This document shows, in pieces, positions 21,110 to 27,047 of a stretch of DNA of 64,000 nt. Within the stretch, counting starts at the first letter, position 1. Each line of letters begins with the position of its first letter. The translations under genes and the position numbers were made by a program. The notes beneath the pieces are model-generated. The model ran no database searches. It saw nothing but the letters and a program-made list of their open reading frames with translations, and was not told the origin of the DNA. Source of the DNA: Deltaproteobacteria bacterium (GTDB lineage Bacteria; Myxococcota_A; UBA796; GCA-2862545); the NCBI GenBank assembly GCA_006226595.1, contig SBGP01000095.1, positions 248,001 to 312,000 of the forward strand. Reading direction: 5' to 3'.

Positions 21110-22192
21110 CTACAGGTTGCCGATGCGCTGGACGAGCTCGGGCGCGTCGACGAACGGGTTGCGGTTGCCCTGGAGGCTCTCGATCACGTCGTTGCGATCG
21201 CGCTCGCGCTGGTCCACCGGGTCCTGCGCGTGCCAGGCGCGCAGGGTCGCCTCCTCGTCCGCGCCGATGTCGCGCTCATAGCGAACCGAGAAGTAGAAGT
21301 GCGCCCGAGCGATGTCTCCGCGGCGCTCCGGCCGCACCTCGAACACCGAGGTCCCGCTCGTGTCCGTGCCTCGCTCGGATCCGCCCACGGCCCAGGGGCA
21401 TGCGCTCGCTTCGCACACCGTGTCCCGGAACTCGAGGCTGGCGCGCTGGGTGTTGGCGTCCGCGTTCGCGGGGAAGATGTGGTGCAGGTCGCCGCGCATG
21501 GGCTCGGTGTCCGCGCCCTCGCTCTGCGGCCAGCTGTGCTCCGTGTTGAACGTGCCGCCGGGAGTGCGCGTGCCGTCCGAGCGCACCTTGATCCCGGTGT
21601 AGATACCCTCGATCTCGTCGTTGAAGACCTCGAAGCCGATCCCGCCGTCGACGCCGTACATCTCGTTGCGCGCCGGCGTGTATCCGAGCCCGACGTGCGT
21701 CTCGCTCGTGTAGGTCAGCAGCGCATCCCGGAGCGCATCGTCGACGAGCCCGGCCCAGGGATCGGTATCGGTGTCCGTGTCGGCATCGGTGTCGGCGTCC
21801 GCATCGGTATCCGCGTCCGCATCGGTGTCCGCGTCCGCATCGGTGTCCGCGTCCGCATCGGTGTCGGCGTCGGCATCGGTGTCCGCGTCCGTATCGGTGT
21901 CCGCATCCGCATCGGTGTCCGCATCCGCATCGGTGTCCGCGTCCGCATCGGTGTCCGCATCCGCATCCGTGTCCGCATCCGCATCGGTGTCCGCGTCCGC
22001 ATCGGTGTCCGCGTCCGTATCGGTGTCCGCGTCCGCATCGGTGTCCGCGTCTGCGTCCGTGTCCGCGTCCGTATCGGTGTCCGTGTCCGCGTCTGCGTCG
22101 GTATCCGCGTCCGCCTCGGCGGTGTCGACGACGGTGTCCTCGGGAGACGGCGAGCAGCCGAGGAGCAGGAGGAGGAGGAGAGCGGAGCGCAT
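21110..22192 (-). CDS. lipoprotein endonuclease I with long Asp/Ala/Thr tract
   Basis: A 360-residue lipoprotein ([12 protein letters not shown], Cys13). Residues 28-145 are almost pure alternating D-A and D-T. The catalytic domain fills the C-terminal 200 residues and has the endonuclease I/EndA-like His-Me finger: [11 protein letters not shown], then [18 protein letters not shown] with the His and Asn expected at the active site. [11 protein letters not shown] and [13 protein letters not shown] follow. It likely degrades extracellular DNA while tethered to the cell surface; the acidic tract may act as a spacer or bind cations. The tract is coded by a minisatellite and can change length. Confidence 0.92.
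21761..22114 (-). repeat. minisatellite coding a poly(Asp-Ala/Asp-Thr) tract
   Basis: About 350 bp of near-perfect 6, 12 and 18-bp repeats (core GTCCGCGTCCGCATCG on the plus strand), all in frame, encode D-A-D-A-D-T units of the nuclease. Because the unit is a multiple of 3, gain or loss of copies changes tract length without shifting frame. Confidence 0.9.
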
Positions 22193-23675: not shown

Positions 23676-24566
23676 CTAGATCGCGATGCCCTCGAAGGCG
23701 AGCACCTGTGCGAGCAGCGCCTCCATCTCGACACGGGCGCGACCGGTGCCCTCCGCGAGGCCGCGATGCAGTGCTTCGTCTTCCGAGCCCTCGACCACGC
23801 AGCGTCGGCTGTACGTCTCGAAGTCCCCAAGGGCGACGAGCAGTCGAGCCAGGTGATTCGGGCATTCGCACAGGAGATCGGGCCGAAGGTTGAGAATGCG
23901 ATCGAGCTGCTCCCGCGAGTAGCGGGGCGACGCGGCGATCCCACCGGTGCGTGTCTCGCGCACCGCGAGGTCGAAGGCCTGGACGAGCTCGTGGGCCTGG
24001 AGGGGCCCGGCCACCAGATGAAGCTCGGGGATCGCTTCGAGTCGGCGGCGCTGACTGCGCGACAGCAGCTGGAAGGTGGCGACGATCACCACGCGGTGAG
24101 CGCGCGCGAAGTCTTCGAGCACGGACACGGCGTCTGGCCGTAGCCACGCCAGCTCGACAAGGAGGAGCTCGGCGCCGGCCTGGCCCAGATCCGCGAGCGA
24201 CTCACTCGATCCGACCAGTGACCAGCGGGCCGAGGCCTCGGCCACCGCCCTACCCGCGGGATGACAGGCCGCAAAGCGGCGCATCCCGCTCCGAGGAGAC
24301 GGCAGCGGCTCGGGAGACGCGACCCCGCGATAGCGCTGGAGCGCCTCGAGATCGAGCTTCGCGAGATCCGACACGCGCGCTCCGTCGTGCACCAGCTGAG
24401 CGATCACCCTCAGGCGCTCGACGTCGACCCAGGCGTACACCCGGCGTCCGCGATCGTCCCTGGCCGGCTCGACGACGCCGTACCGACGCTCCCACGTACG
24501 CAAGGTCTCGGTGGGAACCCCCGTGGCGTGGGACACCGAACCAATCGACCACCGCTCTTCGCTCAT
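23676..24566 (-). CDS. MerR-family regulator, WERRYG type, with a conserved Cys-rich C-terminal domain
   Basis: A 296-residue protein. The ATG at 24566 has GGAGG at 5 nt and starts with SEERWSIGSVSH; the upstream ATG at 24596 lacks a ribosome site. The MerR winged helix is at about 5-70 with TLRTWERRYGVVEPARDDRGRRVY, as in CarA/CarH/LitR-type and MlrA-type proteins. A Rossmann-like segment (about 100-190, AELLLVELAWLRPDAVSVLED) replaces the cobalamin domain: no D-x-H-x-x-G B12 motif is present. The last 70 residues have CECPNHLARLLVALGDFETYS, a domain I recall as common in MerR-like proteins but cannot name. It is divergent from the Roadblock/PYP-like operon and shares its promoter region, so it is the likely regulator of it. 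Confidence 0.85.
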   Translation of the reverse strand: MSEERWSIGSVSHATGVPTETLRTWERRYGVVEPARDDRGRRVYAWVDVERLRVIAQLVHDGARVSDLAKLDLEALQRYRGVASPEPLPSPRSGMRRFAACHPAGRAVAEASARWSLVGSSESLADLGQAGAELLLVELAWLRPDAVSVLEDFARAHRVVIVATFQLLSRSQRRRLEAIPELHLVAGPLQAHELVQAFDLAVRETRTGGIAASPRYSREQLDRILNLRPDLLCECPNHLARLLVALGDFETYSRRCVVEGSEDEALHRGLAEGTGRARVEMEALLAQVLAFEGIAI

Positions 24567-24601
24567 CCTGCCTCCATCGCGACACCGCGACACCATAACC
24601 C

Positions 24602-24634
24602 GTTCAAATCCTGTTCATGGACAGTTCGTGACAG
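24602..24634 (-). promoter_or_regulatory. left array: three 11-bp TGAAC repeats facing the MerR gene
   Basis: GTTC occurs at 24602, 24613 and 24624, exactly 11 bp apart, so the minus strand reads (A)TGAAC or CGAAC in three units: TTTGAAC, CATGAAC and CACGAAC. The units lie 36-68 bp upstream of the MerR ATG. Direct repeats of 11 bp are the operator form known for CarH/LitR-type MerR proteins, which fits autoregulation. Confidence 0.65.
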
Positions 24635-24700
24635 CGCCGAACAGTAGTTGACCAGCTTGCTTGGAGAATTTGAACAATAATTGAACATCAACTGAACAGG
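24635..24700 (+). promoter_or_regulatory. right array: 11-bp TGAACA repeats facing the Roadblock/PYP-like operon
   Basis: Three strong units end in TGAACA at 24671-24676, 24682-24687 and 24693-24698. Weaker units lie in the same 11-bp phase further left: GAACA at 24639 and GACCA at 24650; the unit at 24661 does not match. The last unit abuts the GGAGG ribosome site of the gene at 24708, so binding there would also hinder translation or early transcription. Orientation is opposite to the left array. Confidence 0.65.
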
Positions 24701-24707
24701 AGGCTCT

Positions 24708-25067
24708 ATGCAACACGCCCTCGAATCGCTTCGCCACGCCTGCCCACAGGTGGTCGCTGCCGCCGTCGTCGGACTCGACGGCGAGCTGCACGCGGTGACC
24801 GCCGATCAGGACCTCGACGGCGTCGTCGGGCCGACCTACACCGCCCTCGACACGGTCGCGCAGCGCGCAGTCCAGGAGCTCGGCCGAGGCCAGCTCACGT
24901 TCTGCCTGCTCGAGGGAGCGTTCGGACGCATCGTCGTCCAGGACACCGGGGACGGGCGCGCCCTGGTGGTCGTGAGTGACGAAGGTGCCCGTCTCGGGCT
25001 GCTCCTCGACGACGTCCGCGCTGCCGCCAAGGCCATCGCAGCGGCTCCCGAGGTGGCCCATGCCTAG
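24708..25067 (+). CDS. Roadblock/LC7-domain protein
   Basis: A 119-residue protein with AGGAGG 4 nt before the ATG. One Roadblock/LC7 fold: helix HALESLRHACPQ, strand AAAVVGLDGELHAV, helix TALDTVAQRAVQELG, then paired strands LTFCLLEGAFGRIVVQD, ALVVVSDEG, and the final helix LLLDDVRAAAKAI. Such proteins form dimers that control small GTPases (MglB for MglA) or act as scaffolds. No Ras-like GTPase gene is visible in the window. The next gene starts inside its 3' end. Confidence 0.85.
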   Translation: MQHALESLRHACPQVVAAAVVGLDGELHAVTADQDLDGVVGPTYTALDTVAQRAVQELGRGQLTFCLLEGAFGRIVVQDTGDGRALVVVSDEGARLGLLLDDVRAAAKAIAAAPEVAHA

Positions 25068-26346
25068 CGTGCTCACCATGGGCCTCGGCCTCGTCGCCGT
25101 GGCGTTGACCGGCTGCTCCGCGGCCCTCGGTACGCTGTGGCAGCGCGCCGAGCGCAACCGTCGCATGCTCGCCAGCGACGTCGGGCGCCTGTCCTCGGAT
25201 CTCGAAGCCCTCTCGATCCAGATCGCCAGTCTCAACGAGCAGTCCTCCCGACTCCTGGACCAGCGCAGCGACCTGCAGGATGCCCTGCGCGCGGCTGAGG
25301 AGCGCATCGCCGCAGCCAACGCGACCTCGATTCGGGTCGAGCAGGAGCGGGAGGCGGACCGCCGGCGCATGCGCGATCTCGGCATCGCCCACGCCAACCT
25401 CCAGAAGGGATTCGCGTCCATGGAAGAGGCCCACAGTCAGGCCCAAGAGGATCTGGCTGGCGCGGAGGTCGCGCTTGAACAGGCGATGAACAGGGCGAAG
25501 GAGCACGGCGCGGTGCTCGCCTCACTCGGGGTCGAGGTCGGTCCGCGGACCGTCGACCCGCTGGAGCTCGACCGCCGCGCCCGCAGCCGCGAGGCCGTGC
25601 ACGAGCTGCTCGTCGACTGTGGGGGCACCGCCGCCGCGCTCGTGAGCACGGAAGGCCTGCCCTACGTGGGGAGTGGACAGGATGCCGGCGTCGACCGCCT
25701 GTCCGTCGTCGGCGGCTGGTTCATGGACACGATCGGCGCCTGGGAAGCCGCGCTGGACGCGCCAGCGACGCACTTCTCGCTGCTCGACCGACGCCTGTGT
25801 GCCCACTATGCGCGTCTGCCCGGGAGGCGCGGGCTGCTCGGCGTCGAGAACCTCGGCGACGCCCCGCGCTTCGCGATGAACCACGCGATGATCCGGCTCG
25901 TGGACCGACCGGGCGCGCCGACGGGCAAGCCGGCATCCCTGCCGACCTCGCTGGACCTCGACCACGCGCTCGACGAGCGGATGAGCGCGAGGCTCACGGA
26001 GTGGTCCAAACGCCGCGGTGCCCTCTCGGTCACCGTGGTCGACGAGACCGATCAGGTGCACGCCGTCAGTGCCAGCGGACGCTCCGGCACCGCCGGCAAC
26101 CTCGTGCACCGCCTGCGTCCCCTGTTCCATCGCGTCGCCCTGCACGGGCGCGCCCCCGACGACCTCGTGTGGGTCGCGCGTGCCGCGGACGGCACCTGCG
26201 TCGTCGCCCGACTCGTCGAGCCCGAGACCGATGGCGCCGTGGTGGTCGTCGTCAGTCGCAGCCTCCCGTCCGAGGAGGCCATCGACGAGCTGTGCGCCAC
26301 CGTCCGCTGGACGATGGCCCGTCCCGAACCTCGCGAAGCTTCCTAG
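25060..26346 (+). CDS. membrane-anchored coiled-coil protein with two degenerate Roadblock-like domains
   Basis: A 428-residue protein starting at ATG 25060, 8 bp inside the preceding gene. A single N-terminal hydrophobic segment (LGLVAVALTGCSAALGTLW) has both a lipobox-like LTGC and a strongly positive flank (QRAERNRR); the flank favours a cytoplasmic C-terminus. Residues about 40-150 form a coiled coil. Two alpha/beta modules follow, at about 185-305 and 325-425. Each starts with a helix, has a strand like TAAALVSTEGLPYVG or SVTVVDETDQVHAVS, and ends in VVVVVSRSLPSEEAIDEL-like strand and helix. This is the Roadblock pattern, decayed. It may hold the small Roadblock protein and the PYP-like protein at the membrane. 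Confidence 0.7.
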   Translation: MPSVLTMGLGLVAVALTGCSAALGTLWQRAERNRRMLASDVGRLSSDLEALSIQIASLNEQSSRLLDQRSDLQDALRAAEERIAAANATSIRVEQEREADRRRMRDLGIAHANLQKGFASMEEAHSQAQEDLAGAEVALEQAMNRAKEHGAVLASLGVEVGPRTVDPLELDRRARSREAVHELLVDCGGTAAALVSTEGLPYVGSGQDAGVDRLSVVGGWFMDTIGAWEAALDAPATHFSLLDRRLCAHYARLPGRRGLLGVENLGDAPRFAMNHAMIRLVDRPGAPTGKPASLPTSLDLDHALDERMSARLTEWSKRRGALSVTVVDETDQVHAVSASGRSGTAGNLVHRLRPLFHRVALHGRAPDDLVWVARAADGTCVVARLVEPETDGAVVVVVSRSLPSEEAIDELCATVRWTMARPEPREAS

Positions 26347-26354
26347 GAGTTCCC

Positions 26355-27047
26355 ATGTCTGCGCATCCCGATACGCTGCCTTCACTCGAGCTCCCCCACC
26401 TCCGTGAGCTGCTGGACGAAGCCGAGACCGAGCGCACGCGCCTCAATCGGCGGATCCGACGCATCCGCAACCTGATCAAGGCCGTCGAGAACGGGGACGA
26501 GATGCCCGATCTCGCCGAGCTGTTCGGCGACCTTCGACCATCCCCGCAGAGCCCACCGCCACCGCGGCTGGTGCTGCCCGCTCACACCGGGCCGCTGGGA
26601 CCGGCCACGATCCTCGGAGAGGGCCTGCCTCCCGGAGTCCCGAGCCCCGTGGCTCCGCCGCCGCCGGCGGGCGAGCTGAGGATGCCGAGTGTCGACGTCG
26701 GGCGCCTGGGTCGGATGACGCCCGAAGCGCTCGATGCCCTGCCCTTCGGCGTGGTTACCCTGGACAGCACCGGTCGGGTCATCGGCTACAACGACACGGA
26801 GTCCCGCCTGGCCGGGCTGCCCCGCGAAGCCGTGCTGGGTCGCAACTTCTTCGGGGACGTGGCCCCGTGCGCGGCGGTGCGCGAGTTCGAGGGTCGCTTC
26901 CGAGACTTCGCCGAGGGCCGCTCCCGGCTGAGCCTCGAGACCTTCGAGTTCGTGTTCAACTTCAAGCGTGGCGCACAGCGCGTGGTGATCATGATCTCGC
27001 CGGCGCGGCTGCGCGGGCGGTTCCACGTGTCGATGATTCGCCGCTAG
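26355..27047 (+). CDS. coiled-coil plus PAS protein closely resembling photoactive yellow protein
   Basis: A 230-residue protein with AGGAG upstream of the ATG. Residues 15-50 are a coiled coil (LLDEAETERTRLNRRIRR), then a Pro-rich linker, then a PAS domain from about 125 to 230. The PAS domain aligns to photoactive yellow protein (PYP) without gaps from LPFGVVTLD to NFFGDVAPC. Tyr145, Glu149 and Cys172 fall on PYP Tyr42, Glu46 and the p-coumarate-bearing Cys69. Thr50 is Ala153 and Arg52 is Leu155. The surrounding EFEGRF and the C-terminal strand are also PYP-like. Whether a chromophore is bound is unknown; PYP-type PAS domains without proven photochemistry also occur. It is last in the MerR-controlled operon. 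Confidence 0.82.
   Translation: MSAHPDTLPSLELPHLRELLDEAETERTRLNRRIRRIRNLIKAVENGDEMPDLAELFGDLRPSPQSPPPPRLVLPAHTGPLGPATILGEGLPPGVPSPVAPPPPAGELRMPSVDVGRLGRMTPEALDALPFGVVTLDSTGRVIGYNDTESRLAGLPREAVLGRNFFGDVAPCAAVREFEGRFRDFAEGRSRLSLETFEFVFNFKRGAQRVVIMISPARLRGRFHVSMIRR

Follow-up and report, generated by a model that had tools for sequence, protein, structure and literature searches.

Our results indicate that a conserved operon of Myxococcota couples a photoactive yellow protein (PYP) family gene to Roadblock genes. PYP, a blue-light sensor, ranks among the most thoroughly studied photoreceptors. The protein families are known, their combination is new and conserved, and this PYP-Roadblock operon is undescribed. 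The earlier note had already regarded the combination as such, and our literature search linking PYP with Roadblock found no relevant publication. Roadblock, MglB, and MerR are absent from the main texts of two large PYP surveys, whose supplementary tables may list Roadblock neighbors; the partners named in these main texts are kinases, chemoreceptors, and c-di-GMP enzymes (PMC9664959, PMC12826048). According to the text of one of them, the downstream partner of the first PYP was never identified (PMC9664959). The conserved operon offers a testable PYP signaling partner in Myxococcota, the phylum proposed for the origin of PYP. We consider it fairly probable (about 0.6) that the three genes encode a light-controlled, membrane-anchored photosensory module. 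For this reading we infer light sensing, the chromophore, the contacts between the proteins, a GTPase output, and repression from the observed gene content, the conserved gene order, the PYP residues, the Roadblock fold of a predicted model, the positive-inside topology, and repeat arrays.

The window, that is, the whole stretch of 64,000 nucleotides analyzed, is part of contig C1 in a Myxococcota MAG of 7.2 Mb and 117 contigs. The four adjacent genes reported previously at 23676-27047 are all present. A MerR-type regulator of 296 aa (23676-24566, minus strand) is divergent from three co-directional plus-strand genes, which code for a Roadblock/LC7 protein of 119 aa (24708-25067), a membrane protein of 428 aa (25060-26346), and a PYP protein of 230 aa (26355-27047). 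Neighbors among the three are separated by an 8 nt overlap or an 8 nt gap, an operon-like spacing.

The PAS protein of the window belongs to the PYP family. It has an N-terminal helix (residues 13-45), a disordered linker, and a PYP domain (about 117-230), in which Tyr145, Glu149, and Cys172 are equivalent to Y42, E46, and C69. All 33 of its 33 sequence matches in the PDB were PYP, PYP-derived proteins, or the PYP domain of Ppr, and the closest solved structures were the Ppr PYP domain 1mzu (1.3e-18) and PYP itself. The match to PYP over the chromophore segment, described earlier as free of gaps, is indeed gap-free from Y42 to C69, and Y42, N43, E46, and V66-A67-P68-C69 are kept. Tyr145, Glu149, and Cys172 were invariant among 12 aligned homologues, and the PYP pocket around Y42/E46/C69 was also conserved in each aligned operon homologue. 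The residues equivalent to positions 50 and 52 are Ala and Leu, which the text of one survey gives as the PYP family consensus (PMC12826048). The PYP family definition, as worded in the text of the other, combines Cys69 with Tyr42 and Glu46 and a sequence that resembles PYP more than it does other PAS domains, and both features were found in the window protein (PMC9664959). When the predicted model (mean pLDDT 71, PYP domain mostly 70-90) was used in a Foldseek search, the top 40 matches were all PYP or PYP-derived, and other PAS domains came only after them. Pfam returned general PAS families alone (PAS, 2.1e-8). The profile TIGR02373 (photo_yellow) matched with an E-value of 4.8e-24 and 84.8 bits, below its equivalog cut-off of 143.05 bits for H. 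halophila-type PYP, and the protein is not filed as an equivalog; according to the survey text, this profile detects about 20% of PYP homologues (PMC9664959). Covalent binding of p-coumarate and a photocycle are predicted from the sequence. Of the light- or redox-sensing unit proposed before, with the sensor in the PAS protein and not in the regulator, the location of the photosensor in the PAS (PYP) protein holds, and redox sensing is unsupported because all three chromophore residues are intact. Similar to H. halophila PYP, Ppr, and Ppd, the window protein has a PYP domain with Tyr42/Glu46/Cys69 and the same fold. It differs in the helix and linker N-terminal to this domain and in its Roadblock operon partners, whereas the known partners are histidine kinase, GGDEF/EAL, MCP, or phytochrome.

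The small protein passed the 23-bit cut-off of the Pfam family Robl_LC7 (PF03259) with 26.5 bits, and its family profile matched Asgard Roadblocks, CvnB5, and, weakly, MglB. No Robl_LC7 sequence match was found by Pfam in the membrane protein. Its model, predicted from 12 sequences (pLDDT 82), contains a helix at residues 6-155, with a coiled coil to about 155, followed by two alpha-beta domains. In this predicted model, residues 166-285 resembled M. xanthus MglB (Z 13.2, rmsd 2.9 over 117 residues), and residues 299-421 resembled the C-terminal Roadblock domains of Rag GTPases (Z of about 9). As modeled, the membrane protein consists of two Roadblock-fold domains after a coiled coil. The former description as a membrane coiled-coil Roadblock-like protein falls short of these two modeled domains. 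In all membrane-protein homologues, the N-terminal hydrophobic segment has 0 Lys/Arg before and 2-6 after it, which by the positive-inside rule predicts a transmembrane helix with an N-out/C-in orientation; a cytoplasmic location is therefore expected for the coiled coil and the Roadblock domains. A lipoprotein reading of the LTGC motif was rejected, as LTGC is not conserved and no Lys/Arg lies ahead of the helix.

The Roadblock fold is shared with the MglA/MglB polarity system of Myxococcus and other bacterial Roadblock proteins, and MglB was the top structural match. The module differs from that system in combining a free Roadblock with a membrane-anchored coiled coil that carries two further Roadblock domains, and in the presence of a photosensor and the absence of a cognate small GTPase gene in the operon. 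Conservons (CvnA-D) of actinobacteria likewise contain a sensor protein and a Roadblock protein in one operon. However, theirs includes a histidine-kinase-like sensor (CvnA), CvnC, and a GTPase, none of which is present here, where only Roadblock, membrane, and PYP genes were found, with PYP as the sensor.

The conserved unit comprises three genes (Roadblock, middle or membrane protein, and PYP), not four. In a search of 58 relatives, the PYP protein was found at 50-63% identity in G003, G015, G024, and G033, the last two each having a second copy; membrane protein homologues occurred in exactly these four genomes, always just upstream of PYP, and the same-genus genome G001 was without the membrane protein. 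Six further loci of the same taxonomic order have the gene order Roadblock-middle-PYP. When four candidates were scored per genome, the order-level middle protein was present in 5 of 379 genomes of the phylum, only beside PYP. Wider searches and iterated profiles extended the set to 20 loci with a Roadblock gene adjoining a PYP gene in 18 Myxococcota genomes, including Polyangiaceae and Kofleriaceae MAGs. Nearly all 20 loci have the order Roadblock-middle-PYP on the same strand with short gaps or overlaps; PYP precedes Roadblock at L143, the middle gene is a different one at L142 and L147, and that of L116 was read from two pieces. The middle proteins of the far and near groups matched with 96.6% profile probability over 294 columns, and the flanking genes vary between loci. 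In a phylogeny of 51 PYP domains, the label for Roadblock linkage needed 4 changes compared with 15.9 after shuffling, and 25 unlinked PYP rows separated on a 95/97 branch, among them H. halophila PYP, entered as an approximate sequence. A few unlinked Myxococcota PYPs fell among the Roadblock-linked ones. Only the window genome has the MerR gene next to the operon; full-length relatives of the MerR are located elsewhere. Consequently, the four-gene order suggested for a check in other genomes is ruled out as a conserved unit, and the three-gene order extends well beyond close relatives.

The MerR protein (MerR_1, E 3.4e-15) has a DNA-binding domain of the CarA/CarH type, for which 2jml and CarH structures were the top PDB matches. 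As anticipated, it is without a B12 motif: no B12-binding match was found by Pfam or among 9 family members, whereas CarH of the same genome does match. It resembles the light-dependent repressors CarH and CarA in the DNA-binding domain and in the tandem 11-bp TnnACA operator-like array, and differs from them in the missing B12-binding match and in a C-terminal domain with invariant C233, C235, H238, C256, and H267. This CECPxH...C...H domain has no Pfam name and is possibly a metal or cofactor site. The closest MerR relative (G013, L067:5977-8936) is followed on its own strand by genes for Bac_rhodopsin and beta-carotene dioxygenase. Relatives at L072 (G033) and L074 (G024) precede genes for methylmalonyl-CoA mutase-like subunits and a MeaB-like GTPase, as named from sequence only.

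CarH operators consist of tandem 11-bp repeats nnnnTnnACAn (PMC9304148, PMC8156234). The divergent promoter region had been said to hold 11-bp repeat arrays, and both are found in the MerR/Roadblock intergenic region. Facing the operon is a CarH-type operator-like array of three perfect direct repeats, each TGAACA (24667-24699, plus strand, 12/12), a score reached by none of 300 dinucleotide shuffles; facing the MerR gene is an imperfect array, CGAACT-N5-TGAACA-N5-TGAACG (24601-24628, minus strand, 9/12). TnnACA-type arrays were found upstream of all seven operons of the taxonomic order, all on the plus strand, with best scores of 9-11 of 12 in the other six. A score of at least 10 was obtained in 6 of 7 operons and 2 of 186 control upstream regions (Fisher p=3e-9, a nominal value, as the related copies are not independent and operons were scored over both strands and controls over one). 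A perfect TnnACA triple alone has near chance frequency genome-wide. The exact pattern TGAACA-N5-TGAACA is rare, with 10 occurrences in ten genomes, compared with one for the reversed control pattern. In G013 and G028 it precedes MerR relatives, and in G001 it falls within a cluster of TspO, MerR genes, and a photolyase-like gene whose PF00875 match is below cut-off; the pairs in G020 lie near lgt-like and ftsH-like genes, with no light link seen. Its only copy in the window genome outside the intergenic array is within the membrane-protein coding sequence (25476-25492). Because CarH-type arrays precede all seven same-order operons, a MerR-type regulatory link is supported at the DNA level, and the arrays, as putative operators, tie the module to CarH-type regulation. 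No such arrays were found upstream of distant-family operons.

Taken together, the module would consist of a free Roadblock protein, a coiled-coil protein that is anchored in the membrane and bears two Roadblock domains, and a PYP with an N-terminal helix. The PYP domain would carry p-coumarate at Cys172 (C69) and respond to blue light, and its N-terminal helix may dock on the membrane protein's coiled coil. A light-driven change in PYP would then alter the Roadblock assembly that the membrane protein forms with the free Roadblock at the inner membrane, and this assembly might bind or regulate an MglA-like small GTPase encoded elsewhere. Within the taxonomic order, expression would be set by a CarA/CarH-type MerR acting on the TnnACA repeats; in the window genome, the divergent MerR is most likely this regulator and probably controls its own gene too. 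Several points speak against the module: the PYP score below the TIGR02373 cut-off, the MerR unlinked to the other operons, distant-family operons without arrays, no GTPase gene detected nearby, a better MglA clustered with its own Roadblock, and no PYP-type ligase in the window genome.

The last point bears on an improbable alternative, namely that the PAS domain, though related to PYP, here no longer senses light via p-coumarate and responds to another ligand or to redox. Aromatic lyases with an HL signature are TAL and those with SH are HAL. No ligase of the PYP activation family (TIGR02372) was found in the window genome, which has two tandem aromatic lyases, the first with a HAL-type signature, and similar tandem lyases also occur in G001, a genome without PYP. 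Against this, Y42, E46, and C69 with their pocket are kept in every aligned operon homologue, and next to the operon of the distant genome G170 lie an AMP-binding ligase and an aromatic lyase whose YHL signature is TAL-type, a pair of the kinds that usually serve as chromophore enzymes. The missing genes are also weak evidence, because among 113 pyp operons described in the survey text TAL is found in about 5% and pCL in 32%, about a third (PMC12826048). A second PYP of G182 (L181, C1:2898294-2901760) has a TAL-type lyase some 1.8 kb away. Somewhat stronger, though still unlikely, is the reading that the PYP-Roadblock sensor works with no GTPase and that its Roadblock domains would be a dimerization and membrane scaffold relaying light to some other output, such as a motility complex or c-di-GMP enzymes. 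A motif scan of genes below 420 aa detected no small-GTPase gene beside the 20 operons, an EAL gene is immediately downstream in two loci, and GGDEF/EAL genes are frequent in published PYP operons according to the survey text (PMC12826048). However, in structure the nearest matches were to MglB and to Roadblocks of the Ragulator type, proteins that have GTPases as their targets, and MglA-like GTPases are encoded in all 12 genomes tested with an approximate MglA query. Two are in the window genome, the better match in its own cluster, which includes a Roadblock gene. The Arf model PF00025 was discarded as an MglA detector, as it gave no match in G000 although G000 has MglA-like genes. The small-GTPase or polarity link suggested from the Roadblock proteins is thus plausible for the module and has no counterpart beside the operons; a direct link is one that we infer, since no GTPase gene was detected near them and the MglA-like genes are elsewhere.

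It is also rather doubtful, though less so than the loss of p-coumarate sensing, that within the taxonomic order CarH, the B12 photoreceptor, has the operon in its regulon and that the divergent MerR is a recent neighbor without a role. Genuine CarH genes are present in carotenoid clusters of the window genome and its relatives, and the TATACA/TGTACA repeats preceding the G024 and G033 operons, where MerR is unlinked, resemble CarH operators. Nevertheless, the window array is TGAACA in all three repeats, the variant upstream of the MerR's own relatives, and the MerR gene shares the intergenic region, with an array facing it. Roadblock genes and PAS genes are common in Myxococcota. A chance neighborhood of unrelated sensory genes is contradicted by the order, strand, and short gaps or overlaps kept over 18 genomes in several families and by the clustering of Roadblock-linked PYPs on the tree, and is hardly credible.

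The membrane-anchored PYP-Roadblock module might also have a wider meaning. We regard it as possible, with rather less than an even chance, that throughout the phylum PYP controls a membrane-anchored Roadblock assembly acting on a Ras-like GTPase, possibly as an ancestral PYP signaling route. The Roadblock proteins of Myxococcota act as regulators of Ras-like GTPases and of cell polarity, and light could therefore reach motility or development by a new route; if true, this would be a light-to-small-GTPase pathway in bacteria. Elsewhere in the window, 21110-22192 codes for a secreted nuclease-like protein, judged by eye, that contains an extended tract of Asp-Ala/Thr repeats ([11 protein letters not shown]).
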